Shown piece after piece: positions 1 through 63,268 of a stretch of DNA of 64,000 bases. Made by a program: the position numbers and the translations under genes. The DNA comes from Owenia fusiformis (Eukaryota > Annelida > Polychaeta > Sabellida > Oweniidae), in the NCBI GenBank assembly GCA_903813345.2, contig CAIIXF020000002.1, forward strand, positions 32,258,109 through 32,322,108. Reading direction: 5' to 3'. The first letter of the stretch is position 1. Each line of letters starts with the position of its first letter. The notes beneath the pieces were generated by a model that searched no databases, was not told the origin of the DNA, and saw nothing but the letters and a program-made list of their open reading frames with translations.

Positions 1-126
1 AACTTTAGCAAGCATAAATTGATCCACACTGACAAGAAGCCATTCAAATGTCAAATATGTGGCAAGAATTTCAGGAGGAAGGAGCACATGCAAAGGCATA
101 TTAGACTTGTGCATGACTCCCAATGA
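1..126 (+). CDS. two-finger C2H2 terminal exon, 5' part outside window (+ exon 1)
   Basis: The reading frame is open from the first base to a TGA. It begins inside the helix of a first finger, where the usual Leu is Phe (NFSKHKLIH), and passes a TDKKPFK linker. A complete second finger follows, C-x2-C-x12-H-x4-H, with helix contact residues -1/2/3/6 = R/E/H/R. The protein ends LVHDSQ. The acceptor and spacer lie left of the window. A candidate AATAAA is at 1209-1214, beyond a minisatellite that copies the last codons of this exon. It is taken as the first visible member of the + strand array. Confidence 0.85.
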   Translation, partial: NFSKHKLIHTDKKPFKCQICGKNFRRKEHMQRHIRLVHDSQ

Positions 127-1130
127 CTGCAGAAAACACAGTAAAAGATTGTAGACTTGTGCATGACTCCCATTGACTGCAGAAAACACAGTAAAAGATT
201 GTAGACTTGGATATGACTACTGATGAGTACACAAAACACAGTAAAGCCATCATTGTAGAGTTGTACATGACTACTAATAACTACAGAAAACACAGTAAAA
301 CATTGTAGACTTGTGCATGACTACCAATGACTACAGAAAACACAGTAAAGGCATTGTAGACTTGGGCATTGCTGCCAATGACTACAGAAAACACAGTAAA
401 GGCATTGTAGACTTGTACATGACTACCAATGACTACAGAAAACACAGTAAAGGCATTGTAGACTTGTACATGACTACCAATGACTATACAAAACACAGTA
501 AAGGCATTGTAGACTTGTGCATGACTACCAATGACTTCAGAAAACACAGTTAAGGCATTGTAGACGTGTGCATGATTACCAATGACTACAGAAAACACAG
601 TAAAGGTATTGTAGACTTGTGCATGACTACCAATGACTATACAAAACACAATAAAGGCATTGTAGACTTGTACAAGACTCCCAATGACTACACAAAACAC
701 AGTAAAACATTGTAGACTTGGACATGACTACCAATGACTACAGAAAACACAGTAAAACATTGTAGACTTGTACATGACTACCATTGAGTACACAAAAGAC
801 AGTAAAGCCATTGTAGACTTGTGCATGACTACAAATGACTTCACAAAAGACAGTAAAGCCATTGTAGACTCATGCATGACTACCAATGACTACAAAAACA
901 TGGTAAATGCATTTTAGACTTGTGCATGACTACAAATGACTTCACAAAAGACAGTAAAGCCATTGTAGACTTGGACATGACTACCAATGACATCATAGAC
1001 TTGTACACAACTACCAATAACCACACAAGACACAGTAAACAGGTAAAGGCACTGTAGACTTGTACACAATTACCAATGACCACACAAAAACAGAAAAACA
1101 TTGTAGACTTGTACATGACTACCAAGCAGT
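127..1130 (+). repeat. 51-bp minisatellite seeded by the end of + exon 1
   Basis: About 19 imperfect units share the core gacttgtgcatgactacc followed by aatgactacagaaaacacag. The first unit overlaps the coding end of the exon: its gacttgtgcatgact is the LVHD coding sequence and the next in-frame TGA is the real stop. Units differ by small indels and by g/t changes (cttgtgcat versus cttggacat). Because 51 is a multiple of three, open frames run through the array on both strands, but they encode only repeat and are not genes. Confidence 0.9.
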
Positions 1131-3020
1131 TTGCCATCACTGTATATCATTCTGACTGTTATCTATTGCAGATGTGAATTAGCAGCTTTAACTTGAATAA
1201 CATTGTTTAATAAAATTTACTCATTTCGAGGTCAAGGAATATTATGAGCTTTTGTTGATGTTATTTTTGGGGTATGTAGTGACATTATTGTGGAAATTCA
1301 TGACTCAAATTGTTGAACAACAAAGTGTGACATGCATTTATTATAATAAATAATTTGCAAAAGCTAAAACATTTTTATTGCACACTTGGGTGCTATATTG
1401 TGATCAGTTTGCTGGGTGCGCAGTTGGGTGGGTGTGTGGTTGGCTCAGGACGGGCGTACCGATCAATCTTGTCTACAGGAATAGAGAATGTTGCTAGCAG
1501 TGTTTTCAGAAGTCATGCCAATATATCCCTCACAATTCCAATTTTGATATGTGATAATAGTATACAAATAGTGACTGTCATTGAGGGCAATAGTGTAAAT
1601 TATTTCCCCTGTTAAGTGGAACACCTCTTTAAGTGGAACACCTCCATGAGTGGAACACCTCCATAAGTGGAGCACCTTTTAGATGTACCAAATGTGTTCC
1701 ACTTACACAGGTTTTACCATATTTGGATTATTTTTTTCCATATTAGTAAGTGGTATTCTAGCCTGACAAAAACTTCTACTGCCATCTATATAGCAAATTT
1801 TACAGTACAGTATGAGTATTCATTCAAGAACATATTTTACATTGATAAATCAAAATGTCACTTGATACACTATGTAAGGGCAATGCAAGAACAGAAGTAT
1901 TGATATTAAGATTTATAAATTTGTATTTTAAGTTGGAACAATGTTTACACAAATGTATATTGGGCTTGAAGTGAAGAACAACCAACAAGTGTCATCTATT
2001 ACATTATTATTTTTTTTATATTTATAATTTTTTTATTTCAAAGAATAAGCATTCCTATAGAGGTTTGCTGGCCTGATAGTGCCTTGGCTCATTACCAAAC
2101 TTTGTTTCGTATACAATACATTCATTGTCTCAAACTGTGGATGACAGGGAGGGAAAGATGTCCACAAAGTAGACTGTCCAACAAATGGCTACACTCAGTG
2201 CCCTGAATGTCTAACAATTGCATGCATGAACAACATTGTCTCCATATCCTCTAACATCACGTTAATTTATTTCATATGTGTATACGGGGTTTCATTAGCA
2301 GCAGGCAACAGGCGATTTTCACCGTTTGTTTTCACAAAATCGCCTATTGTTTTTATGGACTTTTCAACTTTTCCATGTTAAATTTATGATTTCCATTTAA
2401 TTTTGCCTTGTTTTCATTTATTTAGCCTGTTGTGAGAAATTCTAGTGAAACCCCCTGTACACTATAGGCTATTTAGGTATTGTATAGTACTCGACAACTA
2501 TGATCCATGGCAGGTAATAATGCCGATATGTTGTTGGGAGTGTCTTTTATGCTATTGAATGCTCCACACTGGAGAAATCCAATAACATAGTCCGTAATTA
2601 TCACACTTTTTCAAAGTGCAATGTTGTAGCCATCTTGTCCTAATGGTGTCTGTCTTAATAAGCAAGCCCCTCAAAAATCTCATCATCAATATTCAAGGAA
2701 AACAGCTGATCTGTTCGACTTAGAAATTTTTACAGAATCAAGAGCAGATTTAAATGCCAAGATTTGATTAAATGTTGGGCATGCTGGGTAAATTACTTGG
2801 TGGTCATTTTGAAATCTTCAACAAAAAGGCGATATTTATCACTATAATTTTGTTCATATAATATATGTTACTATGTCACCACTACAACCTGACAACTGGT
2901 GACATATTGTCATAATCTTTTTGTGAACTGTGTTTCATGTTTGGCATCTATAACAAATGACAGGTGGTGACATTTTGCATGTTAATGCCTTGTATTAATT
3001 TGCTTCCTCTATATTTTCAG
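1131..3020. other. intron or intergenic DNA with dispersed repeats
   Basis: No gene is seen. At 1613-1690 there are about four 18-bp units of the type agtggaacacctcc, a motif also met near 35.27 and 40.87 kb. At 2572-2590 there is a fossil finger linker (ctccacactggagaaatcc, frame HTGEI). 2640-2830 resembles 6410-6500. 2865-2990 belongs to the gtcacca-type dispersed family described separately. Confidence 0.6.
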
Positions 3021-3361
3021 GAAGAGTGTCAATTATACAAAGTATGTTACAAATGAAAGTTTATCCAGACACTGAGGCAAATGAATACGCAGCAGCCCTT
3101 TATGAATCATCCGGTGAAGCGAGTGACAACAATCAAAGGACACAATATAGTTTAAATGAGCCGAATTCCACACCTGGACATTTAGCTTGTGATATTTGTA
3201 GGAAAGTTTTTAAGCATAGGAAAAACCTGACTATGCATAAGAAGATCCATTCTGGTGTAAAACCATATGAATGTACAATATGTGGAAAGAGGTTTAACAG
3301 GAATACAAACAGGATGAGACACCAGAAGGGTCATGATGGCCATGGTAAACCAAACATGTAA
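3021..3361 (+). CDS. two-finger C2H2 terminal exon (+ exon 2)
   Basis: The acceptor is ctctatattttcag, then GAAGAGTG; the first two bases complete a codon (phase 1). The exon encodes about 113 residues. The spacer is rich in acidic and Asn/Gln residues. Finger 1 is at 57-77 (CDICRKVF, contacts H/K/N/M) and finger 2 at 85-105 (CTICGKRF, contacts R/T/N/R, with Arg at the helix position usually held by Leu). The linker is HSGVKPYE. The short tail ends GKPNM. A candidate AATAAA is at 3683-3688. The copy that follows shows that this exon end has been duplicated. Confidence 0.88.
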
Positions 3362-3480: not shown

Positions 3481-4411
3481 TGGGTAAACCAATTAATTGA
3501 TTAAACTTCTCAGGATTTTAATATTGACTGTTTTACATACTCAACCTTTAATTGGAAATTATTATTTCAAAGACTATTTTAAAATGAAATTAATGAGCTG
3601 AGATGATGCAATGAGAGATGCAATTGCCACGGGGTTTTAGTAAATAGTTTATTCAAAATTGACAAAAAACAAACAAAGAAGGAATAAATGGAAAACATTA
3701 ACACACACAGATCCTCAATCCATCCATATATAGATATAAATGGGAATATGTGTCACCTGTTTGAATATGTGTCACCTTTTTGAATATGTGTCACCTTTTT
3801 GACCTGTTTGTGTAAATTGTTTATATTAATTAAAAGTAGAAAGTAGAATGAATAAATAGAATTACTTGAAACATGATCAGTTATAGTTTAGAAATATGTG
3901 CCATTAATGTTATACAGCAAAACTGTTCGGAACAGTACCAAAATGTGGTACTGCAGACCTAAACAGTGCTGTATATTGTATAACAACTTTATGTACCATC
4001 CATTTATTGTATTAAGGGTGTGCTATCAATTTACGCTATTACTGACATGAGTAGTACTGTATAGAGCCATACCTTTACACTGCCTGGTAGTGATAATACA
4101 TACAAGTACCTGTCAGTATTGTGATTTCAGAGTAAAAGTATGTAGTGTAGGGCAGTAGGAGTAGTCAAGATTTATTTAATGATGTTCACAATTTGTATAA
4201 GTTGTTAATTCCAAGTGCAATGAATTGGCAAGATGTAATGAATCAACTTTTGTTATTATATGATTTTATAAAGATTTTCTGTGGATGAGATGATGTATTT
4301 ACAATGATCACCAAATAACCCTTTTTACCACATTTCAACTACAATAATGAGTTCGAGATTTTATACTTTTGTTTCAAGACAATAGTAATAAAATGTTTTT
4401 TTTAATTGCAG
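3481..4411. other. intron or 3' flank, no gene seen
   Basis: Holds three copies of tatgtgtcacctttttga around 3745-3800 and AATAAA words including 3683-3688. Nothing else is recognised. Confidence 0.5.
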
Positions 4412-4920
4412 ATATGCCAAAGGAGAAACTGAGAGAAAAACACAGTAAACCTGAAGACACCAGGACTAATGACCTAGACCCTCATAACACGGAGTCTCAT
4501 GACACAAAGCCAAATGAGCTGAGGTCTGAAGAGCCAAGGTCCTCTGAAGCCAGTGCTGCCAGTCCCATGTCTGGAAAAGCAGATACATGTAACCCTTCAT
4601 CAAGCAACCCCAGCATCGGACAGAACAAAGATACAAGTCCATCTCCTAAATTGATTGGCAAGAAGAAAAGGATAAAGACAACCAAAAAGATAAAGATGAA
4701 CAAAGACTCAAAGTCTCAAAAACAAAATTCTAAGTTTAGATTATATTGTGACCAATGCGATGCATCGTTCACAATTAGAGGTAACCTAACACGTCATCAG
4801 AAACTTCATCTTGGGGAAGAGGCCAAGAGGTACACATGTGGACTTTGTGATAAAAAATATCATCGTAAAGAACACTTGAGGCTTCACATTACTGGTACTC
4901 ATGGCATTGCCCTTCAGTGA
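4412..4920 (+). CDS. two-finger C2H2 terminal exon with long basic spacer (+ exon 3)
   Basis: The acceptor is tttttaattgcag, then ATATGCC, phase 1. At about 169 residues this is the longest two-finger exon here. The spacer is polar, rich in Ser, Pro, Asp and Glu, and ends in a Lys-rich stretch (GKKKRIKTTKKIKMNK) that may be a nuclear localisation signal. Finger 1 is at 113-133 (CDQCDASF, contacts I/G/N/R) and finger 2 at 143-164 (CGLCDKKY, contacts R/E/H/L). The linker LGEEAKRYT is nine residues instead of seven, so finger spacing on DNA may differ. A candidate AATAAA is at 6162-6167. Confidence 0.87.
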
Positions 4921-7271: not shown

Positions 7272-7564
7272 GTCCGAGCAGAATTCCCGAGTTGTCTGGG
7301 CATCAGTCCATCATTGGAATTAAGTGTAAGATTGGACAAAGAAGGAAAGCCTCAAACAGACAAGAATCTGGACAAGGCACTGCTAGTGATCCACACTATA
7401 AGAGATACACATGCACACTTTGCTGTAAAGCATTCAATTCAAGTTCAAACCTATCACGACATTGGCAGATCCATACTGGTGTAAAACCATTTGTTTGCCC
7501 ACATTGTAACAAATTATTTCGCCAAAAGACTCATCTTCAGACTCATATAAGAACCAAACACTGA
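7272..7564 (+). CDS. two-finger C2H2 terminal exon (+ exon 4)
   Basis: The acceptor is tttgtttttag, then GTCCGAGC, phase 1; a Gly codon results if the upstream base is G. It encodes about 97 residues with no methionine anywhere, so it depends on an upstream exon for its start. Finger 1 is at 48-68 (CTLCCKAF, contacts S/S/N/R) and finger 2 at 76-97 (CPHCNKLF, contacts Q/T/H/T). The protein stops right at the last His (TKH). It is almost identical to + exon 6 in finger 1. AATAAA is at 7581-7586, 17 bases past the stop. Confidence 0.92.
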
Positions 7565-8469: not shown

Positions 8470-8777
8470 GTCAAATAAGAGGTCAAGCAGGAGTTTTATC
8501 TGGGCATCACACACTAATTAGAGAATTGATGGGGGCAAGTACTACAATGCGCTACAGTGGAAAGGCGCACCATACTGGCAGCAATACATCACAATGTGAC
8601 TCACAAACAACTAGGAAATACACATGCATGCTGTGCTGTAAATCATTTAATTCAGGTTCAAGTCTATCCAGGCATAAAAAGATCCATACTGGCGAAAAGC
8701 CATTTATTTGCCCATATTGCAATAAATCATTTCGCCAAAAACCACATCTTCAATATCACATTAAAGGCAAACATTGA
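8470..8777 (+). CDS. two-finger C2H2 terminal exon (+ exon 5)
   Basis: The acceptor is ttctgattgcag, then GTCAAATA, phase 1. It encodes about 102 residues with a Ser/Thr/His-rich spacer. Finger 1 is at 53-73 (CMLCCKSF, contacts S/S/S/R) and finger 2 at 81-102 (CPYCNKSF, contacts Q/P/H/Y). A Pro inside the second recognition helix (RQKPHL) is unusual and may weaken it. The protein ends GKH. It belongs with + exons 4, 6, 7 and 8 to the FRQKxHL subgroup. AATAAA is at 8884-8889. Confidence 0.9.
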
Positions 8778-9756: not shown

Positions 9757-10019
9757 GTCAAGCAAGTAATGTAATGAGACCCTATAGAACAGACCTAATT
9801 GCAAGAGACCTTTGCCAAGTTGGACATGTTACTGGTGTTGTTGCAGCATCTCCAAGGAAACACATATGTGACCTTTGTTGTAAAGCATTCAATTCAAGTT
9901 CAAACCTATCAAGACATTGGCAGATCCATACTGGTGTTAAACCATTTGTTTGCCCCAATTGTAGTCAAACATTCCGCCAAAAGGCACATCTGAAAAATCA
10001 CATGAAACGCAAGCACTGA
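9757..10019 (+). CDS. two-finger C2H2 terminal exon (+ exon 6)
   Basis: The acceptor is ttctggtttcag, then GTCAAGCA, phase 1. It encodes about 87 residues with a short spacer. Finger 1 is at 38-58 (CDLCCKAF, contacts S/S/N/R, same helix as + exon 4) and finger 2 at 66-87 (CPNCSQTF, contacts Q/A/H/N). The stop follows KRKH directly. The coding DNA tcaagttcaaacctatca is shared with exon 4, which points to recent duplication with change limited mainly to finger 2. A candidate AATAAA is at 10336-10341. Confidence 0.92.
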
Positions 10020-11682: not shown

Positions 11683-11999
11683 GTCGTCACAGAATTCAAC
11701 AATTTCCTGAGTTGTATGAGCTACCAGCTGGAAATGATGCAGGTCAAAGTTACAATTCAAGCAAAGGACAAACTATACATTTCAAACCAAATCAATCTCA
11801 AGTAGTCTCTAGAAGTTTTACATGTGAGCTGTGCTGTAAGACATTCAACTGTAATTCAAATCTGTCAAAACACAGAAAGATCCACACTGGTGTAAAACCA
11901 TTTATTTGCCCACATTGCAACAAACCATTTCGCCAAAAGGCACATCTCAAAACTCACCTGCAAAGAAAGCATGGATGTGTTTTTTACAATACTCGTTAA
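11683..11999 (+). CDS. two-finger C2H2 terminal exon (+ exon 7)
   Basis: The acceptor is tttcttgtttcag, then GTCGTCAC, phase 1. It encodes about 105 residues with no Met, so an upstream exon is needed. Finger 1 is at 48-68 (CELCCKTF, contacts C/S/N/K) and finger 2 at 76-97 (CPHCNKPF, contacts Q/A/H/T). Unlike exons 4-6 it has an eight-residue tail (GCVFYNTR). A candidate AATAAA is at 12658-12663. Confidence 0.92.
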
Positions 12000-12986: not shown

Positions 12987-13342
12987 GCATTAGACATCCA
13001 TTTAAAGGCTTCAATGTTAGTTCCATATTCCCATATGATGGTGTCGAGACTGGAACAGGCGTAACAACAAAACTTAACAGAGACATGGATTTTCAAATTG
13101 AGGGACATAATCAGATTAAATATAGTGACACACCTGGAAGATTGATGGCTGAATCAAAATCTAACAAGTTCATTTGTAACCTTTGTTGTAAAACATTCAC
13201 ATTGAAATCAAATCTGTCTATGCATATAAAGATCCACACTGGGGAGAGGCCGTTTGTATGCACATATTGTGATAAATCATTTAGACAGAAGGCTCACCTC
13301 CAACGTCATTTGAAAAGCCAGCATGGAGAATATAATGGATAA
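12987..13342 (+). CDS. two-finger C2H2 terminal exon (+ exon 8)
   Basis: The acceptor is acttctgatttcag, then GCATTAGA, phase 1. It encodes about 118 residues. Finger 1 is at 64-84 (CNLCCKTF, contacts L/S/N/M) and finger 2 at 92-113 (CTYCDKSF, contacts Q/A/H/R), with linker TGERPFV and tail GEYNG. The FRQKAHL second helix ties it to exons 6 and 7, while the spacer is unrelated in sequence. A candidate AATAAA is at 13556-13561. Confidence 0.92.
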
Positions 13343-13993: not shown

Positions 13994-14304
13994 GCAGTAC
14001 AAACAGATACTGGAACAGCAGTGGTGACACCCATGTATATGGTGGGGACAACCCATACATGAGCCGTGCCATCAATCAAACACCCCCGAACCTAAGAACT
14101 CAAAAACCTCGAGTGAAGTGTCCTATATGTTTGAAAACATTCATGAGAAAGCAGGCACTGGGCTACCACATGAATATCCATACTGGAGAGAAGCCATTCA
14201 AATGTAAGCTCTGTCCAAAGAGTTTCCCAAACCCTGGCACATTGAATAAGCACACTAAGAGGCACCAGCTTGGTTTACTGGTACACGAAGGGCAACATAT
14301 GTAG
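13994..14304 (+). CDS. two-finger C2H2 terminal exon (+ exon 9)
   Basis: The acceptor is ttttttactttcag, then GCAGTACA, phase 1. It encodes about 103 residues. Finger 1 is at 43-63 (CPICLKTF, contacts R/Q/A/Y) and finger 2 at 71-91 (CKLCPKSF, contacts N/G/T/K, spacing H-x3-H). The 12-residue tail ends EGQHM. CxxCLK in finger 1 is the form common in the - array, so this exon lies outside the CCK subgroup of + exons 4-8. AATAAA is at 15381-15386, far downstream. Confidence 0.9.
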
Positions 14305-15776: not shown

Positions 15777-16129
15777 GTGATGTGATAAGGGATCTGTTCA
15801 GGTACCAGCATGCTTCACTCACTCCACTCCTGATGCATTCTGGGAAACACCATCCACTGCAACCAGCCCCTCACATGAACAAATCAACATCACCTAGTTC
15901 ATACCAGAGACAAAATAGAAAAGTAAAAAATAAGGTCCAGTGTACATTGTGCCTAAAGGCCTTCAGGAGCCAGGCTCACCTTTCTATTCATATGAATTCA
16001 CACACTGGGGATAAACCATTTAAATGCAATATTTGTTTCTGTGCCTTTGGACATCCATTTGCATTGACGAGGCATAATAGAAAATTTCATGCATCAACTT
16101 CTGCCACACAAATGTCTTTACCTCAGTAA
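15777..16129 (+). CDS. two-finger C2H2 terminal exon (+ exon 10, last on this strand)
   Basis: The acceptor is attgtgtattttcag, then GTGATGTG, phase 1. It encodes about 117 residues. Finger 1 is at 56-76 (CTLCLKAF, contacts S/A/H/I) and finger 2 at 84-105 (CNICFCAF, contacts H/F/A/R). The tail is ASTSATQMSLPQ. In finger 2 the extra Cys (CFCAF) and the Phe-Ala helix are atypical. No further + strand finger exon is visible beyond this point. Confidence 0.9.
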
Positions 16130-20305: not shown

Positions 20306-20377
20306 CATATGAAGTACGATCATAGCGATGTGGTTTTAGGAAACAATCAACATTAAATTGATATATTAAATGTTTAC

Positions 20378-25500: not shown

Positions 25501-25745
25501 GCTACTACAAGAGAAATACTTTAGACAGAGTTCACATTTGTATTTCTTGTTTCTGTCAATATTGAAGTATACTTTGGCCTGTTTGCTAGACATATGGGGT
25601 TGGTTGTCCTTTTTGCCTGGACCCTGTGGCCTGGTGAATTGGGTCCCACTCATCGAGAATGTCCCAGGAATGTAAGCCCCTGTGAAACTTGTTCCAGTAG
25701 TATTGGAGGCTTGATACTTGGAATAGGTCAAATCCACAAATTCCT
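25501..25745 (-). CDS. C2H2 terminal exon cut by the assembly gap (- exon a)
   Basis: The acceptor is aatttctaattccag, then AGGAATTT, phase 1. The spacer has the Thr/Gly motif of this subgroup (TTGTSFTGAYIPGTF). The first finger starts KCELCLKYFSCSS and then enters the gap, which must hold the rest of finger 1, finger 2 and the stop. Transcriptionally this is the most distal visible exon of the - array. Confidence 0.85.
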
Positions 25746-38021: not shown

Positions 38022-39027
<1,006 letters not shown>

Positions 39028-40194: not shown

Positions 40195-40565
40195 TTATTT
40201 TCCAACATGTGTACTTCTAATATGTCTATCCAAGTTAGCTTTTTGAGTGAACTGTCTGCCACAAATCTTGCAGTGAAATGGCTTTTCTCCAGTATGGATC
40301 TTTAGATGCTTAGTCAAGTTACATTTTTTGGTGAAAACTTTCAAACATATGTTACACTGAGGGAGAGATGGGCTATCATTGCTCATATGTTGGTTTGATG
40401 TAAATTCTTTATTAAAAGAATGATTCCATTGATTGTATTCTTGAGGTTGTTTGTATTCATGTGGTTGATTATACCCCCGGGGTTGCTTGTATTCCTGGAG
40501 TTGCTCGTAATCTTGAGGTTGTTTGGATACTTGATGCTGAAATTGGAATAATCCGATGGTCATTT
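40195..40565 (-). CDS. two-finger C2H2 terminal exon with QPxEY repeats (- exon k)
   Basis: The acceptor is attttcttttttcag, then AAATGACC, phase 1. It encodes about 123 residues. The spacer has about six tandem units of Gln-Pro-x-Glu/Asp/Gly-Tyr (KQPQDYEQLQEYKQPRGY), a low-complexity Gln/Tyr tract. Finger 1 is at 71-91 (CNICLKVF, contacts K/C/N/K) and finger 2 at 99-120 (CKICGRQF, contacts Q/A/N/R). The tail is VGK. Confidence 0.92.
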
Positions 40566-41555: not shown

Positions 41556-41947
41556 TTAATGTTGTTTCAAATAACATGTCTTCCTGTGTTTGACAAGTGC
41601 AACTTTCTGTCTGAACTGTTTGCCACAAAGGTCGCAACTAAATGGCTTTTCTCCAGTATGTACTGACATATGCTGGTTCAAGTTATTTGGCTTTGAAAAT
41701 ACTTTCAAACATATTTCACATGTAGCTTGACGGTAGCGGCCTCTAGTTTCAGTACTGTTTGTTTTCTGCTTATATATTTGACCTAAAGGCTGCTTCGATC
41801 CTTCGAGTCGTTGAGTCATTTGATAGTTCTGTATGGGAAAGTATTGTTCATTTGGTAATACAGTTCTAGTTGGATACACTTCTGCTGGATTGGATGCATG
41901 GTGTATGTTGTCCGTATGGAGCTGCTCGTAAACATTTAGGAGCATTT
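41556..41947 (-). CDS. C2H2 plus C2HC two-finger terminal exon (- exon l)
   Basis: The acceptor is atttgtttttcag, then AAATGCTC, phase 1. It encodes about 130 residues with a Gln/Asn-rich spacer. Finger 1 is at 77-97 (CEICLKVF, contacts K/N/N/Q). Finger 2 at 105-125 (CDLCGKQF, contacts Q/A... helix RQKVAL, i.e. Q/V/A/K) ends H-RKT-C, so the last ligand is Cys. This C2HC variant can still bind zinc. The tail is YLKQH, whose His is an alternative but distant ligand. Confidence 0.9.
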
Positions 41948-43205: not shown

Positions 43206-44330
43206 AAACTTCATTTTGATTGCTACTTTGCAATTGAAACATTAGATGATGTGAACTTTTTATGTACATTTAAATTACTGCTTTGCTATAAAAACATTAG
43301 GTGATGTTTTGAACTTTTCTTTTATGCACACTCAAATTGCTACTTTGCTGTAGAAACATTAGACGATATTGTGAACTTTTCTTTTATGCACACTCAAATT
43401 GCTACTTTGCTATAGAAACATTAGATGATATTGTGAACTTTTCTTTTATGCACACTCAAATTGCTACTTTGCTATAGAAACATTAGACGATATTGTGAAC
43501 TTTTCTTTTATGCACACTCAAATTGCTACTTTGCTATAGAAACATTAGATGATATTGTGAACTTTTCTTTTATGCACACTCAAATTGCTACTTTGCTATA
43601 GAAACATTAGATGATATTGTGAAATTTTCTTTTATGCACACTCAAATTGCTACTTTGCTGTAGAAACATTAGATGATATTGTGAACTTTTCTTTTATGCA
43701 CACTCAAATTGCTACTTTGCTGTAGAAACATTAGACGATATTGTGAACTTTTCTTTTATGCACACTCAAATTGCTACTTTGCTATAGAAACATTAGATGA
43801 TATTGTGAACTTTTCTTTTATGCACACTCAAATTGCTACTTTGCTATAGAAACATTAGACGATATTGTGAACTTTTCTTTTATGCACACTCAAATTGCTA
43901 CTTTGCTATAGAAACATTAGATGATATTGTGAACTTTTCTTTTATGCACACTCAAATTGCTACTTTGCTATAGAAACATTAGATGATATTGTGAAATTTT
44001 CTTTTATGCACACTCAAATTGCTACTTTGCTGTAGAAACATTAGATGATATTGTGAACTTTTCTTTTATGCACACTCAAATTGCTACTTTGCTGTAGAAA
44101 CATTAGACGATATTGTGAACTTTTCTTTTATGCACACTCAAATTGCTACTTTGCTAGAGAAACATTAGACGATATTGTGAACTTTTCTTTTATGCACACT
44201 CAAATTGCTACTTTGCTTTAGAAACATTAGACGATATTGTGAACTTTTCTTTTATGCACACTCAAATTGCTACTTTGCTATAGAAACATTAGACAATATT
44301 GTGAACTTTTCTTTTATGCACACTCAAATT
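43206..44330 (-). repeat. 62-bp minisatellite seeded by the end of - exon m
   Basis: About 18 units contain gaacttttcttttatgcaca then ctcaaattgctactttgct, and the last one merges into exon m, where the same bases encode [14 protein letters not shown] with its stop (inverse). Point variants (gacgat/gatgat, gtag/atag, gaaattt at 43621 and 43993) recur every six units, so a 372-bp higher-order unit has itself been duplicated. The array starts with two or three more diverged units. Confidence 0.93.
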
Positions 44331-44557
44331 GCTGCCTCGGTTGAATCCTCTATTACATATTTCACACACATGAGGTCTCTCGCCAGTATGTATAAACATG
44401 TGTCTTTGTAAATTGCCTTTAGCAGTGAAGCTTTTCCGACAGAGAGTACATGTATATCTCATTGCAGGTTGTTCTACCATCTCGACATACTGTAGATTTG
44501 GTGCATTTTCTCTCTTTACCTGTTGAGCCATTCGTATCATTATGGTTTCTTGGATAT
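44289..44557 (-). CDS. two-finger C2H2 terminal exon (- exon m)
   Basis: The acceptor is attgatattttccag, then ATATCCAA, phase 1. It encodes about 89 residues with a short spacer. Finger 1 is at 37-57 (CTLCRKSF, contacts A/G/N/R) and finger 2 at 65-86 (CEICNRGF, contacts R/S/N/V), with linker TGERPHV and tail NIV. Its coding end is inside the 62-bp repeat, so array growth and coding sequence are in direct contact. Exon n is its closest relative. Confidence 0.92.
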
Positions 44558-45273: not shown

Positions 45274-45554
45274 TTAAATGACATCAAAAATGTTGTGAAC
45301 TTGTTTTAAATGTACTTTCAGATTGCTCCCTCTGTTAAATGCCCTGTTGCATATTTTACATACATGAGGTCTCTCGCCAGTATGTATATACATGTGACGT
45401 TGTAAACTGCACTTAGCAGATAACGTTTTCCCACAAAGTTTGCAAATAAATCTCATATTAGTTTGTTGATCAATCATGGAATTCTCGAAGTTTTTAATGT
45501 TGTTCCTATATGCCGGCTGGACTCCTTTCTGTATCAATGTCTCTGGGAAGTTAC
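45274..45554 (-). CDS. two-finger C2H2 terminal exon (- exon n)
   Basis: The acceptor is atcagttttgctatttttcag type (tatttttcag), then GTAACTTC, phase 1. It encodes about 93 residues. Finger 1 is at 38-58 (CKLCGKTL, contacts A/C/S/R; core Phe replaced by Leu) and finger 2 at 66-87 (CKICNRAF, contacts R/S/N/V). The tail is NIFDVI. Finger 2 has the same contacts as exon m, so the pair would differ mainly by finger 1. Confidence 0.9.
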
Positions 45555-46249: not shown

Positions 46250-46566
46250 TTATTTACACACTATATTGTGCATGGTCTTTGAGTGAACTCTTAGGTAGCT
46301 AGCACGTGAAAATCCCTTTTTGCAAACACTACAAACATATGGTTTTACACCAGTGTGGATTTGCATATGTTGGCTCAAATTATTTTTTGATTTAAATGTC
46401 TTTTTACAGATTTTGCAAGGGAATCTATTTTCATCTTGAGACAGGAATGGGCGAGTGTTGGTTCCATACATTGGGTGATTCATGGCTGATGGAGAATATG
46501 TATGTGGTGTGTCGATTCTTGGGTTTCCTGCTTTGTAATTCTGTGGTATCCAACTTTTCCCGAGAC
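46250..46566 (-). CDS. two-finger C2H2 terminal exon (- exon o)
   Basis: The acceptor is cttctggtttttccag, then GTCTCGGG, phase 1. It encodes about 105 residues with a Pro/Asn/Tyr-rich spacer. Finger 1 is at 51-71 (CKICKKTF, contacts S/N/N/Q) and finger 2 at 79-100 (CSVCKKGF, contacts R/S/Y/V), with linker TGVKPYV. The tail NIVCK shares HNIV with exon m, so m, n and o form one subgroup. Confidence 0.92.
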
Positions 46567-47972: not shown

Positions 47973-48292
47973 TCAAGGCATGACATTAGACGACTTTCTA
48001 TGCAAGCTCTTATGCTCCCTCAAATGTGAGTTCCTAATGAAAGTTTTGTTGCAGACATCACATTTATGTGGTCTTGCACCAGTATGGATCTTCAGATGTT
48101 GAACCAAATTGCCTTTACGACTGAAGACCTTCATACAGAGGTGGCACTGGAGACTGGATGAGTCTTTAGGTTCCATGTGAAAAGAACTACTCCGAGGGTA
48201 AACAGTCTCCAAGTAATCTGCGGTGAGACTTGAATCTGAACTTACAAATTGTGGTGTGTGGATATAGGATTGCGCCATAAAGCCAAAATGGT
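47973..48292 (-). CDS. two-finger C2H2 terminal exon (- exon p)
   Basis: The acceptor is tttatttaatttcag, then ACCATTTT, phase 1. It encodes about 106 residues with a Ser-rich spacer. Finger 1 is at 50-70 (CHLCMKVF, contacts R/G/N/Q) and finger 2 at 78-98 (CDVCNKTF, contacts R/S/H/E, H-x3-H). The linker is TGARPHK and the tail RKSSNVMP. Confidence 0.92.
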
Positions 48293-48928: not shown

Positions 48929-49212
48929 TCATTTAGTGTTAACAACATGTATTCTTAATTCATGGCTCTTAGCATGACTATTCCTTTTAAAAGATTTATT
49001 ACAGAATCCACATTTAAATGGTTTCTCGCCAGTGTGGATCCTCATATGTTGTTTCAAGTTACGTCTTTCTGTGAATTGTTTACAGCACATATTGCATACA
49101 TATTTCCCATCCTGCATCTGCACTCTTTGTATATCATGATCCACGTATATTCCTCTCATATCAGCTACTTCACCTGGTAAACTGTAATTCAGGTAGCTTC
49201 TGTTAAAACTTC
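48929..49212 (-). CDS. two-finger C2H2 terminal exon (- exon q)
   Basis: The acceptor is tttttattctttcag, then GAAGTTTT, phase 1. It encodes about 94 residues. Finger 1 is at 40-60 (CNMCCKQF, contacts E/R/N/Q; CCK as in the + array) and finger 2 at 68-89 (CGFCNKSF, contacts R/S/H/S; Ala in place of the helix Leu). The linker is TGEKPFK and the tail VVNTK. Confidence 0.92.
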
Positions 49213-50587: not shown

Positions 50588-51282
50588 GTCCATCAATTCA
50601 TTTCTCCATTTCACCCTAAGGTTTAACATATGTTGCCCTGTATGAGTTACACCCAATATGATAGGACCAATGACACATAACACTGTTGCCCATTAGTCTA
50701 TTTGTTCATATCAGTCTTTAAAATGAGTCCATCAATTCATTTCTCCATTTCACCCTAAGGTTTAACATATGTTGCCCTGTATGAGTTACACCCAATATGA
50801 TAGAACCAATGACACATAACACTGTTGCCCATTAGTCTATTTGTTCATATCAGTCTTTAAAATGAGTCCATCAATTCATTTCTCCATTTCACCCTAAGGT
50901 TTAACATATGTTGCCCTGTATGAGTTACACCCAATATGATAGGACCAATGACACATAACACTGTTGCCCATTAGTCTATTTGTTCATATCAGTCTTTAAA
51001 ATGAGTCCATCAATTCATTTCTCCATTTCACCCTAAGGTTTAACATATGTTGCCCTGTATGAGTTACACCCAATATGATAGGACCAATGACACATAACAC
51101 TGTTGCCCATTAGTCTATTTGTTCATATCAGTCTTTAAAATGAGTCCATCAATTCATTTCTCCATTTCACCCTAAGGTTTAACATATGTTGCCCTGTATG
51201 AGTTACACCCAATATGATAGAACCAATGACACATAACACTGTTGCCCATTAGTCTATTTGTTCATCTCAGTCTTTAAAATGA
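50588..51282 (-). repeat. 139-bp tandem repeat (5 units) seeded by the end of - exon r
   Basis: Units start at 50588, 50727, 50866, 51005 and 51144, each exactly 139 bp and nearly identical. Each ends in tcagtctttaaaatgagt, which in exon r encodes THFKD and its stop (inverse). Only the last few codons are copied; the rest of the unit is 3' flank. Units differ by single changes such as aggacc/agaacc. Confidence 0.95.
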
Positions 51283-51646
51283 GTTGCTCTATGAGTGGTC
51301 ATCTGTAGTTTACGTATGAATGCCTTTGAACATATATCACACTTGTGAGGTCTATCACCAGTATGAAGAAACATATGTCTGTCTAGGCTTCTCTTTGCAG
51401 TAAATTCCTTCAAACAGATCTTACACTTAACCTTTGGCTTGGGTACTGAGCCAGTGGGCCCTTGGCCTTGGTAAGGCACTGAAGCCATGGTCATTTGCGG
51501 TTGATTAATTACAAAAGACACACGGGGGTTAACCTCCAGTGGTTCAGCCCCAAAGGATGTCAGAAGGCTAGCATCTTCTGGATAAGAATCTGTGGTTGAC
51601 TCTGGGGGTGTTCCATTGGGGTTCTGGTTGAGATGCATCCAATAAT
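51267..51646 (-). CDS. two-finger C2H2 terminal exon (- exon r)
   Basis: The acceptor is catctatctttcag, then ATTATTGG, phase 1. It encodes about 126 residues with a Pro/Ser/Thr-rich spacer. Finger 1 is at 75-95 (CKICLKEF, contacts A/R/S/R) and finger 2 at 103-123 (CDICSKAF, contacts R/L/Q/T, H-x3-H). The linker is TGDRPHK and the tail FKD lies in the repeat. Confidence 0.92.
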
Positions 51647-52224: not shown

Positions 52225-52592
52225 TTAGGGGGGTGCATGTTCAACACTTGGTTTTGGCAGTTCTTGTTCTGTAGCCAGTTGAGGCAGTGGATGTTTATTA
52301 AGTTTATGATTTTTCAGATTGCTGGCTCTTACAAACTTCTTCTCACATTGGTCGCACTGAAAACGTCGCTGTTTGTTGGCGCCAACCCCCGAATGCACCT
52401 CCTGGGTATGACGCCAAAGATTGCGCCTCAATGTGAACGTTTTGAGACATATGTGACAGAAATGTTTCTCCTTGGATTTGATTAGTTCAGACACAACTGG
52501 TGCCCGTGCCTCCTGCGATTTCATGAACTCATCTGATTGGCCAGGGAAATGGAGAAGATACGCCTGCGACTCAGCCTGCAGGAGGTTGAGTG
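52225..52592 (-). CDS. two-finger C2H2 terminal exon with long linker and tail (- exon s)
   Basis: The acceptor is attttaatttcag, then CACTCAAC, phase 1. It encodes about 122 residues. Finger 1 is at 46-67 (CHICLKTF, contacts L/R/N/R, H-x4-H). The linker SGVGANKQRRFQ is 12 residues instead of seven. Finger 2 is at 80-101 (CDQCEKKF, contacts R/S/N/N). A 21-residue tail rich in Pro and Glu ends EHAPP. The coding DNA is more GC-rich than its neighbours. Confidence 0.92.
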
Positions 52593-53020: not shown

Positions 53021-53295
53021 TTAGTTTGGATCAGATGGTCTAAAATGTTTCAGCTGCATATGATCTCGCATTGAATGATGTCTCGTGAATGATTTATAGC
53101 AAATATCACATTTGTATGGTTTCTCTCCAGTGTGGGTCTTTATATGCCTTAACATGTTCCTGCGTAGAGTAAATCCACGCTTACAGGTCTCACATTCAAA
53201 TTTGTGACCTGGTGATTTCTGAATTCTCTGTGTAGTTTGGCTGAATTGGTTTGATCCATATGTAGAATATGTACTTGAGGGAAGTCTCAGTTGAC
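53021..53295 (-). CDS. two-finger C2H2 terminal exon (- exon t)
   Basis: The acceptor is gtattcatttcag, then GTCAACTG, phase 1. It encodes about 91 residues with a Ser/Thr/Gln spacer. Finger 1 is at 35-55 (CETCKRGF, contacts L/R/N/R, as in exon s) and finger 2 at 63-84 (CDICYKSF, contacts R/H/S/D). The linker is canonical, TGEKPYK. The tail is FRPSDPN. Confidence 0.92.
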
Positions 53296-55037: not shown

Positions 55038-55324
55038 TCATTTCGCCAAATCATGTATCTTCCATACATGTCGTCTCAATGTTGTAGCTCTAACAAATGT
55101 CTTTAAACAGACATGGCACTGGTGTGGCCTTTCGCCAGTGTGGATCTTCATGTGCTGACCAAGGTTGTGACTCATTGTGAAATGCTTCAAGCACACTTTA
55201 CATTGAAACTTCTTAGGGGTGTTAGCATTGGAGACTTTAGATTGTATTAGGCATCCAGATGAGGATATCATATCGGGGTCCTGATGTAGACGAGATATAA
55301 ATCCTTTAGGGAGCCAATTGATAC
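55038..55324 (-). CDS. two-finger C2H2 terminal exon (- exon u)
   Basis: The acceptor is ttttatgaatttcag, then GTATCAAT, phase 1. It encodes about 95 residues. Finger 1 is at 42-62 (CKVCLKHF, contacts M/H/N/Q) and finger 2 at 70-91 (CHVCLKTF, contacts R/T/T/R), with linker TGERPHQ and tail DLAK. Its second finger (CLKTFxRATT) is shared with exon v, which marks them as sisters. Confidence 0.92.
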
Positions 55325-55914: not shown

Positions 55915-56206
55915 TTTACACCAGTATGGAGCTTTACATCGGTATGGAGATTCAGCATAACACATGATGTACAATACGCTTATGTTGCATCATTGTGGTA
56001 GCTCTACAGAATGTCTTAGGGCATATATCATACTCAAATTTACCCCAGTATGGAGCTTTAGCATGGCACATGATGTACAATACGCTTATGTTGCATCATT
56101 GTGGTAGCTCTACAGAATGTCTTAGGGCATATATCATACTCAGATTTACCCCAGTATGGAGCTTTAGCATGGCACATGATGTACAATACGCTTATGTTGC
56201 CTCATT
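55915..56206 (-). repeat. 106-bp tandem copies of the end of - exon v
   Basis: Units with gtggtagctctacagaatgt start at 55995 and 56101, and the matching sequence in exon v is at 56207, giving a 106-bp period; a more decayed unit lies before. Each unit repeats, in inverse, part of the second finger through RIVHHVPC with its stop and a linker remnant (ccccagtatgga). The CxxC pairs are damaged, so none is functional. Confidence 0.88.
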
Positions 56207-56468
56207 GTGGTAGCTCTACAGAAAGTCTTGAGGCATATATCACACTTATGTGGCTTTTCACCAGTATGAGTCTGCATGTGCTGTTTCATGTTCCATTTCA
56301 AAGAGAACTCCTTAGAGCAGACTTCACATCGGTGTTTCTCTCCAGTTGGGTTATAATTTCTTTTTCTCCCCTTAGAAGCATGGGGCTGAGATTCAAAGTC
56401 AGAATTAACTTGGGGGTTTTCTCTGTTCTCTCTTGAATAACCGTCAAACAGATCATACATAGTGAAAC
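56164..56468 (-). CDS. two-finger C2H2 terminal exon (- exon v)
   Basis: The acceptor is tatattattttcag, then GTTTCACT, phase 1. It encodes about 101 residues with a basic stretch (KGRKRNYNPTGEKHR) ahead of the fingers. Finger 1 is at 48-68 (CEVCSKEF, contacts L/W/N/Q) and finger 2 at 76-97 (CDICLKTF, contacts R/T/T/Q), with linker TGEKPHK and tail HVPC, which lies within the repeated segment. Confidence 0.92.
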
Positions 56469-57665: not shown

Positions 57666-57997
57666 TCAATGCATTTTGTTCCTATGGTAACGCATATTAA
57701 ATGCTCTTTGGAATGCCTTGTTGCAGATGTCACACTTGTAAAGTTTCTCTCCAGTGTGGATCTGCAAATGTTGATTCAAATTGCCTTTCAGTTTGAATTC
57801 TTTAAGGCATAACTTGCACTGATGAAATTCATTGTATGTACTTTCTTTATGGAATACTCCCTCATTTATATAACGAACTGTCGGAATTTCTCCTGCATTG
57901 CTTCTCATTATTTGTGTGTGTTCTCGGTTGGTATTTGTTGGATGCGTTGAGATGAAACTCAAGTCATAATCTGCTGCACTCAATAACTGTTTGACAC
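57666..57997 (-). CDS. two-finger C2H2 terminal exon (- exon w)
   Basis: The acceptor is tgtattaatttcag, then GTGTCAAA, phase 1. It encodes about 110 residues. Finger 1 is at 61-81 (CKLCLKEF, contacts L/G/N/Q) and finger 2 at 89-110 (CDICNKAF, contacts R/F/N/Y), with linker TGEKLYK. The stop follows the last ligand (NKMH). The LKGNL helix recurs as LMGNL in exon x. Confidence 0.92.
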
Positions 57998-58550: not shown

Positions 58551-58906
58551 CTAATGCAATGGTCCTTTTGTATGAATCTTCATATGTCTTTCCAGATTAA
58601 ACTTGGCAGTAAACTCCTTAAGGCAGATCTGACACTGCTGTTTCACAAGAGTTCCTGTATGGAGCTTCATGTGTCTTGACAAGTTCCCCATGAGTGTGAA
58701 CTCCCTCATGCACACATTGCACTTGAATTTTGACTTATTTTTGTCGTCAGCTTTGACGTCATGTTTCGGGAGGTTTTGCCATGTGTTATAAAGAGCAGCT
58801 GTGGTTACGTTCTCACTTGGTTGTGACATATATCGGAGCTTATTTTCATATGTTATTTGTTGCAGTCTTGCGGAATCGTAGTCTTGGAACAAGTTTTTGT
58901 TATATT
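58551..58906 (-). CDS. two-finger C2H2 terminal exon (- exon x)
   Basis: The acceptor is ttcgttccatttcag, then AATATAAC, phase 1. It encodes about 118 residues. Finger 1 is at 63-83 (CNVCMREF, contacts L/G/N/R) and finger 2 at 92-112 (CQICLKEF, contacts A/F/N/R, H-x3-H). The linker TGTLVKQQ is eight residues and has lost the EKP core. Finger 2 looks like a first finger of this family (CLKEFTAK), so the exon may have arisen by doubling finger 1. Confidence 0.92.
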
Positions 58907-59546: not shown

Positions 59547-59848
59547 TCAATGTGCCAAATAGTGTTCAACCACATTTTGTTCACTCGAATGTTTATTCTT
59601 CATATGAGTCCTCTTTCCCGACAATCTGGCAAATGTCATTTCACAAAAATCACATTTATGCGGTTTCACACCAAAATGAATCTTCAGATGACGATTCCTA
59701 CTACACGGCAGTGTAAATTCCTTCAGACATATATTACATTGATACAACTTTTTGACACCTTCGGTTCCAGGGATTGTCGCTAGATGGGGCTCTTGGTGTG
59801 TTTGCTGTAACATGGGCACGTTGAGAAGTTGCCATGGCAATTGGTTAC
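59547..59848 (-). CDS. two-finger C2H2 terminal exon (- exon y)
   Basis: The acceptor is tgttatgttaatttcag, then GTAACCAA, phase 1. It encodes about 100 residues. Finger 1 is at 38-58 (CNICLKEF, contacts L/C/S/R; Arg in place of the core helix Leu) and finger 2 at 66-87 (CDFCEMTF, contacts R/S/G/T; Lys in place of Leu). The linker HFGVKPHK has Phe for Thr. The tail SSEQNVVEHYLAH is 13 residues. Exon z shares all these oddities. Confidence 0.9.
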
Positions 59849-60781: not shown

Positions 60782-60880
60782 TATATATTTCAATGTTTTC
60801 TCATATATTTCAATGTTTTCTCATATATTTCAATGTTTCTCATATATTTCAATGTTTTCTCATATATTTCAATGTTTTCT
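60782..60880 (-). repeat. 20-bp tandem repeat seeded by the end of - exon z
   Basis: Five units of catatatttcaatgttttct, the last ones overlapping the exon end: in exon z, tcaatgttttctcttcatat is the inverse of HMKRKH with its stop. One unit has lost a base. It is the shortest-period example of exon-end duplication here. Confidence 0.88.
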
Positions 60881-61131
60881 CTTCATATGTTGTTTCTTTG
60901 CAGTAAGTCGTGCAAATTTCATCTCGCAATAATCACATTTATGTGGTTTCACACCCCAGTGAATTTTCATATGGCGCGTTCTACTATTCCGCAATGTAAA
61001 TTGCTTTAGACATATTGCGCATTGGTACAATATTCGACCTTGACCTTGACCTGGAGTTGCTATGACACCAGCTTTGTTTGTTGTCAGAATGTCCTGATTG
61101 CTAGGGTTCAGATGCCAATGCCTCAGGTGTT
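60869..61131 (-). CDS. two-finger C2H2 terminal exon (- exon z)
   Basis: The acceptor is tggtgttgtgttaatttcag type (gttaatttcag), then AACACCTG, phase 1. It encodes about 87 residues. Finger 1 is at 38-58 (CAICLKQF, contacts L/N/S/R; Arg for the core Leu) and finger 2 at 66-87 (CDYCEMKF, contacts R/T/A/Q; Lys for Leu). The linker is HWGVKPHK. The stop follows KRKH. The intron flank aaattaacacaacacca also matches exon y, so the duplication included non-coding DNA. Confidence 0.92.
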
Positions 61132-61420: not shown

Positions 61421-61770
61421 TCACTGTATGTAATTTTGGAAACTGTCTCCAGTTTTATTTCTATTAGAGATTTTAATATGTTTGCTCTCTATGTGACTTC
61501 TCAAACATGTTGAACGCAGAAATGTTTTTTGACAGAACTGGCATTCGTGTTTCCGCTGTCCGCTATGAATCTTCATATGACGTGAAAGATTGTTCTTCAG
61601 GGTGAATTCCTTTAGGCAAACAGGACAGACAACCTTCTGTCTCTTGTTTGAATCCATTGTAATATTTCCATGATCGGCATGATTTATAACATTGTGTTGC
61701 ATCTTTGTGGCGAAATCTTGATTGAGTTGACATAAGGCAACTTCAGCTTGCTGTGAGTAACCAAGACCAA
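61421..61770 (-). CDS. two-finger C2H2 terminal exon (- exon aa)
   Basis: The acceptor is ttgtctttcttgcag, then TTGGTCTT, phase 1. It encodes about 116 residues. Finger 1 is at 49-69 (CPVCLKEF, contacts L/N/N/R) and finger 2 at 77-98 (CQFCQKTF, contacts R/T/C/S). The linker SGQRKHE departs from TGEKP. An 18-residue polar tail ends QNYIQ. Confidence 0.92.
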
Positions 61771-62339
61771 CTGCAAGAAAGACAATTTGTATATAAGCTC
61801 AGTTTATCTTGTTATGTGGAAGTTGATTTATATACTCTTATTACTCAAGACTTGCCAGATATATGAAAGACACATTTTAGACACCTCTGAAATTTTATTT
61901 ATAGATCATCATTATCACACCATATCAAATTAGATAGCATCAGTCAATACCGTAAAATAGCTAAAGGGACTTTTTTATTTATAATTTCCCCGAGCAATTG
62001 AAGCTCTTAAGTAATACCCAGGGCTCTCGCTAGGTTTTTAGATCACAGTCTATTTCGCTCCTACCACAACCTATTGGCAAATATTGATTGTCACAGTCTA
62101 AACTCTACTGAATACACAATATTAGCATGTAAAAAGGATTGAACCATTAAGACGTTTCTACCACACCCTAAATATTTCCTGGTGAGAGCCCTGAATACCT
62201 TATCAATGCTCAGTTGTTTTATACAATCAGTCTCTTTGAATTTCAATTGATTGTTTCTTAATCAATCCACCATTGTATTATAATTCTCACTGCTGATTCT
62301 TTTGATATTGTTCTACTCTTTTGTTTTATTGTCAAAACT
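61771..62339. other. intron with a short DNA element
   Basis: The element at 62019-62193 is listed separately. A possible AATAAA for exon bb (inverse tttatt) lies at 62325-62330. Confidence 0.5.
62019..62193. mobile_element. 175-bp DNA element, CAGGGCTCTC ends, 6-bp target duplication
   Basis: The ends cagggctctcgctagg and cctggtgagagccctg are inverse with few mismatches. The direct repeat aatacc lies immediately outside both ends (62013-62018 and 62194-62199). There is no coding capacity. The longer element at 53829-54559 has the same ends. Confidence 0.82.
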
Positions 62340-63268
62340 TTAAATGTCCAGTTCATCCTGATTATTATTATCTCCATCATCAAATGTGCCATCTTTTTCT
62401 GGTATTTCATCATCATCATCAACAATGTTATCTTTCTCCACTACTGCAGCCTCAACACCAATGCCCATATCTTCCACTGGTTCAATTTCACCATCATCTA
62501 TTTCAACTTTTTCTTTCTTAATGTTTGGGAATTTCTTATGGCCCATGGCTCTCCTATGCTTAGTCAGTGATGATCTATATGGGTAAGACTTTGAACATAC
62601 GTTACATATGTGCTGTTTGTTGGTATGCATAGCTGCTATATGGTCAATCTTGCCTCCATTTGACAAGAACGTTAGCCCACACCCGTCAAAATCACATGTT
62701 ATAATAGTTGGTTTTCCTTTAGGTCCAACACAGAATTTCAAGTGATTTTTAAGTGATCGTTTATGGTAGTATGATCTTGCGCATTTTTCACAAATGTAGG
62801 GTGCTTTCAATGTGTGAACTGAATTCATGTGTCCATCCATCGCTTCCCCACTTCTGAATTTCATGTCACAAATTTTACAGACAAATCTGAATCTTCCCTC
62901 ATGTATTTCTCTCTTGTGGTGTCTCAAACCACCTTTTGTTCCTAACTTTTTTCCACACAGATCACACATATAGCCAGCCTGATGTTTCCCATGTATATGC
63001 TCATTCAAAAGATAAGCAGTCCTGCATTTTTTAGGGCACTGATCACAATGAAAAACACCAGAGTTTTTCTTATCGCCATGCATGACATCAACATGACGTG
63101 TTATACTTGTTTTATGTGCAGTCGTAAACATACATTTGTCACATTTATAAAGTTTTTCATCATCGTCAAAATATTGCGAAGGGTTTCTCTGTTTCATTTG
63201 AACAGTGCGCCATCTATTGTTGATGATGACGTGTCTTTTCCGTAATTCTGGCCCATGTGAGACAAAGC
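62340..63268 (-). CDS. seven-finger C2H2 terminal exon with acidic tail (- exon bb)
   Basis: The acceptor is tttcttcattgcag, then GCTTTGTC, phase 1, as in all other exons. It encodes about 309 residues. Fingers begin at CDKCMF, CDQCPK, CDLCGK, CKICDM, CEKCAR, CDFDGCG and CNVCSK; the fifth ends H-x3-C, the sixth has C-x4-C, and the last ends H-x5-H. They are separated by irregular linkers without TGEKP. The last 60 or so residues are acidic (VDDDDEIPEKDGTFDDGD). It may be a further alternative terminal exon, or the last exon of a separate zinc-finger gene whose 5' part is right of the window. Confidence 0.85.

Follow-up and report, generated by a model that had tools for sequence, protein, structure and literature searches.

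A candidate annelid gene with one shared N-terminal part and 35 alternative two-finger terminal exons in Owenia fusiformis

A stretch of 64,000 nucleotides from the annelid Owenia fusiformis (assembly GCA_903813345.2, contig CAIIXF020000002.1, here called C2, positions 32,258,109 to 32,322,108; the whole stretch is the window in what follows) is filled with short exons, nearly all of which encode two C2H2 zinc fingers and a stop. Are these exons dozens of small genes, or the alternative ends of a single one? An earlier note on this DNA had proposed the design of Drosophila lola and mod(mdg4), in which one shared N-terminal part is spliced to many terminal exons. Our analysis argues that the array very probably belongs to one annelid gene, in which two shared 5' exons, A and B, would be joined in cis to one of 35 alternative two-finger terminal exons. 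The proposed design gains support from exons A and B, from a second locus with the same splice positions, and from a chromosome-wide link between finger exons and the N-terminal domain of exon A; it has to give up the one poly-finger exon, E01, which is probably not a direct alternative, and the splicing itself is predicted from sequence.

Exons E01 to E36 were defined from six-frame C2H2 scans of the window and from exon models. A strict pattern was used for the two-finger calls, and single-finger minisatellite copies and spurious finger matches were removed before the total was taken. The window holds 36 finger exons, 35 with exactly two C2H2 fingers and the poly-finger E01, and an own stop closes the open frame in all 36, in line with the earlier note. 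That note had counted at least 37 exons, 36 of them with a visible start; our own scans found them again, and the total is 36, with the pieces at 1-126 (plus) and 25,501-25,745 (minus) forming one exon, E27. The two-finger exons are 86-179 codons long, and the median gap between exons in the window is about 1 kb. Coordinates are in window numbering; two-finger entries without a comment are plain exon models.

62340..63268, minus: E01, poly-finger exon, probably the last exon of a 12-finger chain
61421..61770, minus: E02, two-finger terminal exon
60869..61131, minus: E03, two-finger terminal exon
59547..59848, minus: E04, two-finger terminal exon
58551..58906, minus: E05, two-finger terminal exon
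57666..57997, minus: E06, two-finger terminal exon
56164..56468, minus: E07, two-finger terminal exon
55038..55324, minus: E08, two-finger terminal exon
53021..53295, minus: E09, two-finger terminal exon
52225..52592, minus: E10, two-finger terminal exon
51267..51646, minus: E11, two-finger terminal exon
48929..49212, minus: E12, two-finger terminal exon
47973..48292, minus: E13, two-finger terminal exon
46250..46566, minus: E14, two-finger terminal exon
45274..45554, minus: E15, two-finger terminal exon
44289..44557, minus: E16, two-finger terminal exon
41556..41947, minus: E17, two-finger terminal exon; best acceptor phase 0, phase-1 site second
40195..40565, minus: E18, two-finger terminal exon
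39028..39446, minus: E19, two-finger terminal exon
38022..38326, minus: E20, two-finger terminal exon
37246..37613, minus: E21, two-finger terminal exon; behind it comes a 147-bp minisatellite built from the last finger (35340-37377)
33465..33817, minus: E22, two-finger terminal exon; best acceptor phase 2, phase-1 site second
32570..32925, minus: E23, two-finger terminal exon
30686..31053, minus: E24, two-finger terminal exon
28901..29271, minus: E25, two-finger terminal exon
27263..27690, minus: E26, two-finger terminal exon
25501..25745, minus: E27, 5' part, cut by the gap; assigned acceptor ranks fifth, top-ranking site also phase 1
25001..25500, no strand: scaffold gap of 500 N, cutting E27; the piece to its left (1-25000) appears inverted
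1..126, plus: E27, 3' part with second finger and stop, inverted piece
3021..3361, plus: E28, two-finger terminal exon, inverted piece
4379..4920, plus: E29, two-finger terminal exon, inverted piece; alternative phase-1 acceptor possible at 4412
7272..7564, plus: E30, two-finger terminal exon, inverted piece
8470..8777, plus: E31, two-finger terminal exon, inverted piece
9757..10019, plus: E32, two-finger terminal exon, inverted piece
11683..11999, plus: E33, two-finger terminal exon, inverted piece
12987..13342, plus: E34, two-finger terminal exon, inverted piece
13994..14304, plus: E35, two-finger terminal exon, inverted piece
15777..16129, plus: E36, two-finger terminal exon, inverted piece, last of the array

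Every one of the 36 exons has an assignable phase-1 acceptor, from which the frame stays open to the stop; in 31 of them this acceptor outscores all other AGs of the frame (the exceptions being E17, E22, E27, E29 and E32). In a blind test, every AG of each open frame was scored with textbook weights, and the best acceptor was in phase 1 in 34 of 36 exons; in the two exceptions, E17 and E22, the phase-1 site came second. The statement of the earlier note that all exons are entered in phase 1 is therefore right for the assigned acceptors and needs these two exceptions for the blind ones. Its judgement that the agreement lies far beyond chance holds, with P = 5e-11 against a background of 190 phase-1 sites among 447 AGs. 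Since related exons inherit phase, four paralogue groups were also collapsed, giving 24 units; if all 24 are in phase 1, which uses the assigned acceptors, the chance is 1e-9. Internal variable exons of the Dscam type, with a 5' splice site, are not what we found: all 36 frames stop, and the strict donor GTRAGT occurs once, in E13, and in none of the other 35 exons, weaker donors being outside this scoring. No further coding segment of the re-joined window rose above the coding score except copies of last fingers and one stretch at 23.9 kb, at a threshold passed by 26 of the 36 known exons, so that a weak exon could escape. Branch-point and k-mer enrichment near the acceptors gave nothing convincing.

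The assembly as given has exons on both strands, as in mod(mdg4), an arrangement that would speak for trans-splicing. The only gap in the window, 500 N at 25,001-25,500, comes directly after exactly 25,000 bases, and exactly 15,000 N directly precede window base 1 (-14999 to 0; C2:32243109-32258108), either as a gap or as a withheld stretch. Joining the piece to the right of the gap (minus strand) to window base 1 (plus strand), with no base lost, yields the canonical finger pair and stop of E27. In a junction test, 8 of 49,600 junctions gave a canonical finger pair, namely base 1 and seven positions inside other intact finger exons. Past the 15,000-N run, the left flank carries two relics of E36, both decayed and both in minus orientation, as expected if 1-25,000 had been turned round. 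Gaps of 500 N are what the program 3d-dna inserts. According to the text of its genome paper, the Owenia assembly was scaffolded with 3d-dna (PMC9977687). Bases 1-25,000 thus appear to have been inverted by scaffolding, which would make the two-strand layout an assembly artefact and place all exons on one strand, in order from E02 to E36. We rejected the opposite-strand exons as a sign of trans-splicing, because the re-joining of E27 and the junction test explain the strand switch.

Which exon could serve as the common donor? Before A and B had been found, the window exons alone excluded only a donor exon with a final T, which would create stops in 7 of the 36. Two candidate constitutive exons sit 6-7 kb past the window end on the minus strand (the window itself ends 0.7 kb upstream of E01), given here in continued window numbering:

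71091-70602, minus, outside the window: exon A, coding part
70278-69931, minus, outside the window: exon B

Exon A starts with an ATG in the context AAAATGG, has the opening sequence LTQMIQDAVLKLCTQNVVFNKALEIDGIICVSPGDESKEIVVKMHRTI, and encodes an N-terminal domain of about 55 residues, here called the N-domain, and a proline-rich stretch. Exon B is an acidic linker holding VKQE, in agreement with a sumoylation consensus. The donor of A (AAG/GTGTGA) and the acceptor (CAG/AT) and donor (CAG/GTGAAT) of B are all in phase 1, and both exons end in G. Placed ahead of each window exon in turn, A and B give one open frame to the exon's stop in 36 cases out of 36.

The earlier note had pointed to a BTB or some other shared N-terminal domain in the flanks; the second of these turned up in exon A, whereas a BTB did not. 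BTB was rejected as the shared part: the nearest BTB match on C2 lies at 30.35 Mb, about 2 Mb from the locus at 32.33 Mb, in a genome search with 146 matches, four of them on C2 (the best 150 of 196 candidates, searched exon by exon, so that an intron-split BTB could be missed). With the limit set at E 1, Pfam gave no family for either exon A or exon B, and so no KRAB, SCAN, ZAD or BTB. A plus-strand paralogue, N2, lies head to head with exon A at a distance of about 4 kb; its N-domain exon ends in phase 1 and is followed by one two-finger exon, likewise entered in phase 1, for a product of 202 residues. The sole Pfam hit of N2, to BshC, is below the cut-off (E 0.035, 13.9 bits vs 27), and NCBIfam gave only sub-cut-off matches, the best again N2 to BshC (E 0.0022, 17 bits vs 265.8). 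Among PDB sequences the N-domain matched none up to E 10, and a five-sequence profile produced two chance matches (E 1.9 and 2.5), to a fimbrial protein. By these comparisons, the N-domain of exon A is not a BTB; it appears to be a domain of undescribed kind.

Two more finger exons lie between B and the array, and with E01 they form a chain of 12 fingers by a loose pattern:

65321-65197, minus: first exon of the 12-finger chain
64830-64503, minus: second exon of the chain
63268-62340, minus: third exon of the chain, E01

The joins restore one split finger and one split cysteine codon. E01 is probably the third exon of this chain, which starts at 65,321, rather than a direct alternative; the chain may represent an additional isoform or a gene of its own. 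The last donor of the chain is unable to serve the array, because its final T gives stops with 7 of the 36 exons.

The same architecture is repeated elsewhere on C2. A third copy of the N-domain, N3, lies in the left flank, where an N-domain exon is followed by a longer finger exon, phase 1 to phase 1 (by eye). With E35 as query, short two-finger frames were found clustered at further places on C2. Two genes lying head to head at 34.40 Mb have retained exons A and B, splice positions and phases being identical (by eye); finger exons follow downstream on each strand, and the best acceptor of these finger exons is in phase 1 in 18 of 20. For the other arrays, sampled as stretches at three places, the figures are 30 of 35 finger exons and 24 of the 28 two-finger ones. 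A genome search with the N-domain gave 50 matches at E up to 0.001, 45 of them on C2. We then compared their positions with 117 short finger exons outside the window, comprising C2 genome-search matches with an open frame of up to 185 residues and 14 exons from the stretches, longer frames and other chromosomes having been dropped. This set derives from the matches listed among the best 150 candidates per genome search; it may include exons that are not intact, some members having internal stops, and the counts are lower bounds. A same-strand N-domain lies within 100 kb upstream of 116 of the 117, and within 100 kb downstream of none; when the N-domains were rotated by at least 300 kb, the count averaged 8.0 with a maximum of 61 (1,000 rotations). 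An opposite-strand N-domain lies within 100 kb on either side of 51 of the exons, in part because eight head-to-head N-domain pairs exist. A genome search with exon B gave ten matches, of which eight are strong (E up to 1.6e-11), each next to an exon A. Five or more finger exons follow at exactly these eight loci, at least 141 in total, and the remaining N-domains of C2 have none to two each in the collected set:

1.37 Mb: exons A and B, at least 16 finger exons
14.43 Mb: exons A and B, at least 5 finger exons
19.14 Mb: exons A and B, at least 12 finger exons
19.80 Mb: exons A and B, at least 16 finger exons
32.33 Mb (locus of the window): exons A and B, 35 finger exons
34.398 Mb: exons A and B, at least 32 finger exons
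34.405 Mb: exons A and B, at least 8 finger exons
34.67 Mb: exons A and B, at least 17 finger exons

The eight head-to-head pairs of N-domain exons on C2 are less than 20 kb apart (for example C2:32328711 and 32333169), which suggests shared bidirectional promoters.

How did the arrays arise? A tree was built from 60 two-finger exons with strict spacing, including 33 of the 35 window ones. The nearest leaf comes from the same array in 48 of the 60 cases, where shuffling gave a mean of 21.4 and a maximum of 32. Among the 33 window exons, 13 have their physical neighbour as the nearest window leaf, against a mean of 2.0 and a maximum of 8 after shuffling. E35 and E36 fall together with exons at 34.32 Mb. 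On the evidence of this tree, tandem duplication is the main way in which the arrays grow, a few types being common to several arrays. Over all pairs of two-finger exons, codon positions 1, 2 and 3 differ at 0.44, 0.42 and 0.61. The four classical contact residues of each finger form 35 distinct sets in 35 exons, and some framework positions hardly vary. Some other exposed positions are equally variable, which makes a diversification aimed at DNA contact no more than plausible. Stops lie within tandem repeats in 8 of 36 exons, and acceptors in 0 of 36 (rotation P 0.037), which is best read as duplications being harmless behind a stop. Copies of the last finger follow the stop of E21 (35340-37377, the long 147-bp minisatellite), E24 (30414-30823), E23 (32444-32690), E07 (55942-56246), E26 (26476-26865) and E28 (3382-3432); additional fingers could arise from them upon the loss of a stop.

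We propose the following course of expression. Transcription would run on the minus strand of the assembly, from a promoter probably located between N1 and N2, and a non-coding start would lead to exon A. Exon A would be spliced to exon B, and B to one of 35 acceptors within the same pre-mRNA, and the transcript would end at the own 3' end of the chosen exon by alternative polyadenylation. Each terminal exon would supply a linker, two C2H2 fingers and a stop, giving products of about 370-460 residues (395 for A-B-E02) that have the N-terminal module in common and differ in the DNA-binding pair, each of which may recognise a different DNA site. Because two fingers alone read little DNA, the N-domain may serve all products by gathering several proteins in an oligomer, as BTB does in lola and its kin; it may also recruit a cofactor. 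Since there is one N-domain per array, trans-splicing would not be required, and the best reading of C2 is that it has eight convergent lola-like genes, each choosing one terminal exon in cis.

Several observations weigh against this proposal. Exon A and exon B have donors of moderate score (3.8 and 4.6). A poly(A) hexamer lies within 400 nt past the stop in 29 of 36 exons, a mild enrichment over a null with a mean of 22.9 and a maximum of 31 (500 draws). The chain (65.3-62.3 kb), possibly a gene in its own right, stands between exon B and the array, where the splice would need to pass over it. The contact positions are variable, yet no more so than some other exposed positions. In the other arrays, 5 of 35 exons have their best acceptor in another phase; one finger exon of the 117 (C2:24,258,550) has no nearby N-domain; and the two weak exon-B matches (E 0.004 and 0.009) adjoin N-domains for which two and zero finger exons were found.

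Four alternative explanations were weighed, and as they overlap, their probabilities and that of the single cis-spliced gene do not sum to one. In trans-splicing of the mod(mdg4) kind, terminal exons with promoters of their own would be joined to a separate A-B transcript, a difference in the last step only, and such splicing is known for mod(mdg4) and lola in Drosophila (PMC12692577, PMC11426971). We regard it as unlikely here: the strand switch that would favour it appears to be an artefact of the assembly, and each of the eight arrays has its own same-strand N-domain upstream.

Some 35 independent small genes in tandem, each with its own promoter and first exon, would find room for a short promoter in the spacing of the exons, and N2 provides a precedent for a simple two-exon gene. 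They would also need starts of their own, and eight two-finger exons (E03, E09, E22, E24, E25, E26, E30 and E33) lack an ATG both ahead of the first finger and in the open sequence immediately before the acceptor. The upstream open fragments of neighbours are dissimilar in five of the six groups compared; the sixth (E21-E27) gave 78 matches, and the eight among the matches listed are last-finger copies. With a single N-domain exon ahead of each array, we find this explanation quite improbable.

A third possibility is that another, unseen upstream exon is the shared donor and that A-B is part of the poly-finger chain only. A-B does join the chain exon at 65.3 kb in frame. Yet N2 and N3 have an N-domain exon followed by a two-finger or longer finger exon from phase 1 to phase 1, strong exon-B matches are confined to the eight array loci, and the last donor of the chain, as noted, yields stops with part of the array; we find an unseen donor quite improbable. 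A decaying array, formerly active and now left as relics, is very improbable, for although frameshifted E36-like relics lie in the flank, last-finger copies follow several stops and some finger matches at other loci have an internal stop, the frame is open from assigned acceptor to stop in all 36 window exons and third codon positions differ most.

How does the single cis-spliced gene compare with known systems? In insects, broad, tramtrack and fruitless place alternative C2H2 pairs on a shared N-terminal domain, with few alternatives and a BTB. The KRAB, SCAN and ZAD families are lineage-specific expansions with a shared N-terminal module and chromosomal clusters, and they expand as separate genes, whereas the growth of the eight Owenia loci would be in terminal exons. 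In Pfam, exons A and B show no match to any of these domains. The closest system in its working is lola, with one shared N-terminal part and many alternative terminal exons, mostly C2H2. As described in PMC11426971, lola has 20 isoforms, 17 of them with C2H2 fingers, against 35 finger ends at the Owenia locus. The Owenia system further differs in that its shared domain is not a BTB, its host is an annelid, eight array loci lie on one chromosome, and trans-splicing is not needed. The likeness to mod(mdg4) lies in the many alternative terminal exons on one shared part, at least 30 isoforms in that case (PMC11426971, PMC12692577). The mod(mdg4) isoforms are mostly FLYWCH, with terminal exons on both strands that are trans-spliced (PMC11426971, PMC12692577), while the Owenia ends consist of two C2H2 fingers and lie on one strand after correction. 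Judged on sequence, the locus has the one shared 5' part and the many phase-matched terminal exons that mark the lola/mod(mdg4) class; as a gene without BTB and from outside the arthropods, it is no member of that group. The TTK-type BTB group, which includes lola and mod(mdg4), is reported only from arthropods and was not found in annelids, according to PMC11426971. The earlier note had foreseen an independent case should the organism not be an arthropod, and Owenia fusiformis is an annelid.

We consider it rather likely that the N-domain is an undescribed zinc-finger-associated domain on the order of KRAB or ZAD, with about 45 copies on one annelid chromosome, and that eight of its loci, which arose independently or by locus duplication and carry arrays of 5-35 exons (at least 141), yield a set of DNA-binding proteins larger than the terminal-exon loci known to us and independent in origin of the insect BTB genes. 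No annelid locus of such design was found in the open-licence literature, among the titles and abstract beginnings of the matches listed, and the terms 'zinc finger', 'BTB' and 'alternative splicing' do not occur in the main text of the paper on the Owenia genome (PMC9977687). Protein database searches with chimaeric or profile queries gave mostly generic finger proteins, and a PDB sequence search with E16 gave generic finger proteins only. A many-ends design in an annelid, with an unrelated front domain and at eight loci, would allow the needs of the design to be tested, be it a multimerising front part, phase-1 exons on one strand, or trans-splicing.

Genes of this kind can easily escape notice. 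P0209, an annotated Owenia protein matched by a profile of E30-E34 alongside the window's own frames, probably corresponds to a frame at C2:9.712 Mb, with an N-domain 7.9 kb upstream on the same strand. It has a repeat-like stretch in common with the window (77% over 31 residues), and it looks like a single three-finger terminal exon whose frame runs back across the acceptor into a dispersed repeat. On another chromosome, C8, a cluster of finger frames of about 135-250 residues (C8:12067640-12119264), where no N-domain match was found, is apparently a different finger family.

An element of about 50 nt upstream of acceptors (sense, at E12, E20, E25, E28 and E32) was considered as a cis element and rejected, being a dispersed repeat present in both orientations in the flanks. 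Copies of this repeat lie at 2938-3010, 29338-29408 and 49232-49301, in the flanks, and also ahead of the N2 finger exon. The right flank, in continued numbering, further contains a long open frame resembling the gag-pol of a long terminal repeat retrotransposon (108059-113047, plus), and two duplicate pairs, 84287-86260 with 89334-91304 (minus) and 121215-123221 with 154338-156335 (plus), encode leucine-rich-repeat-like proteins and cysteine-rich proteins, named by eye.

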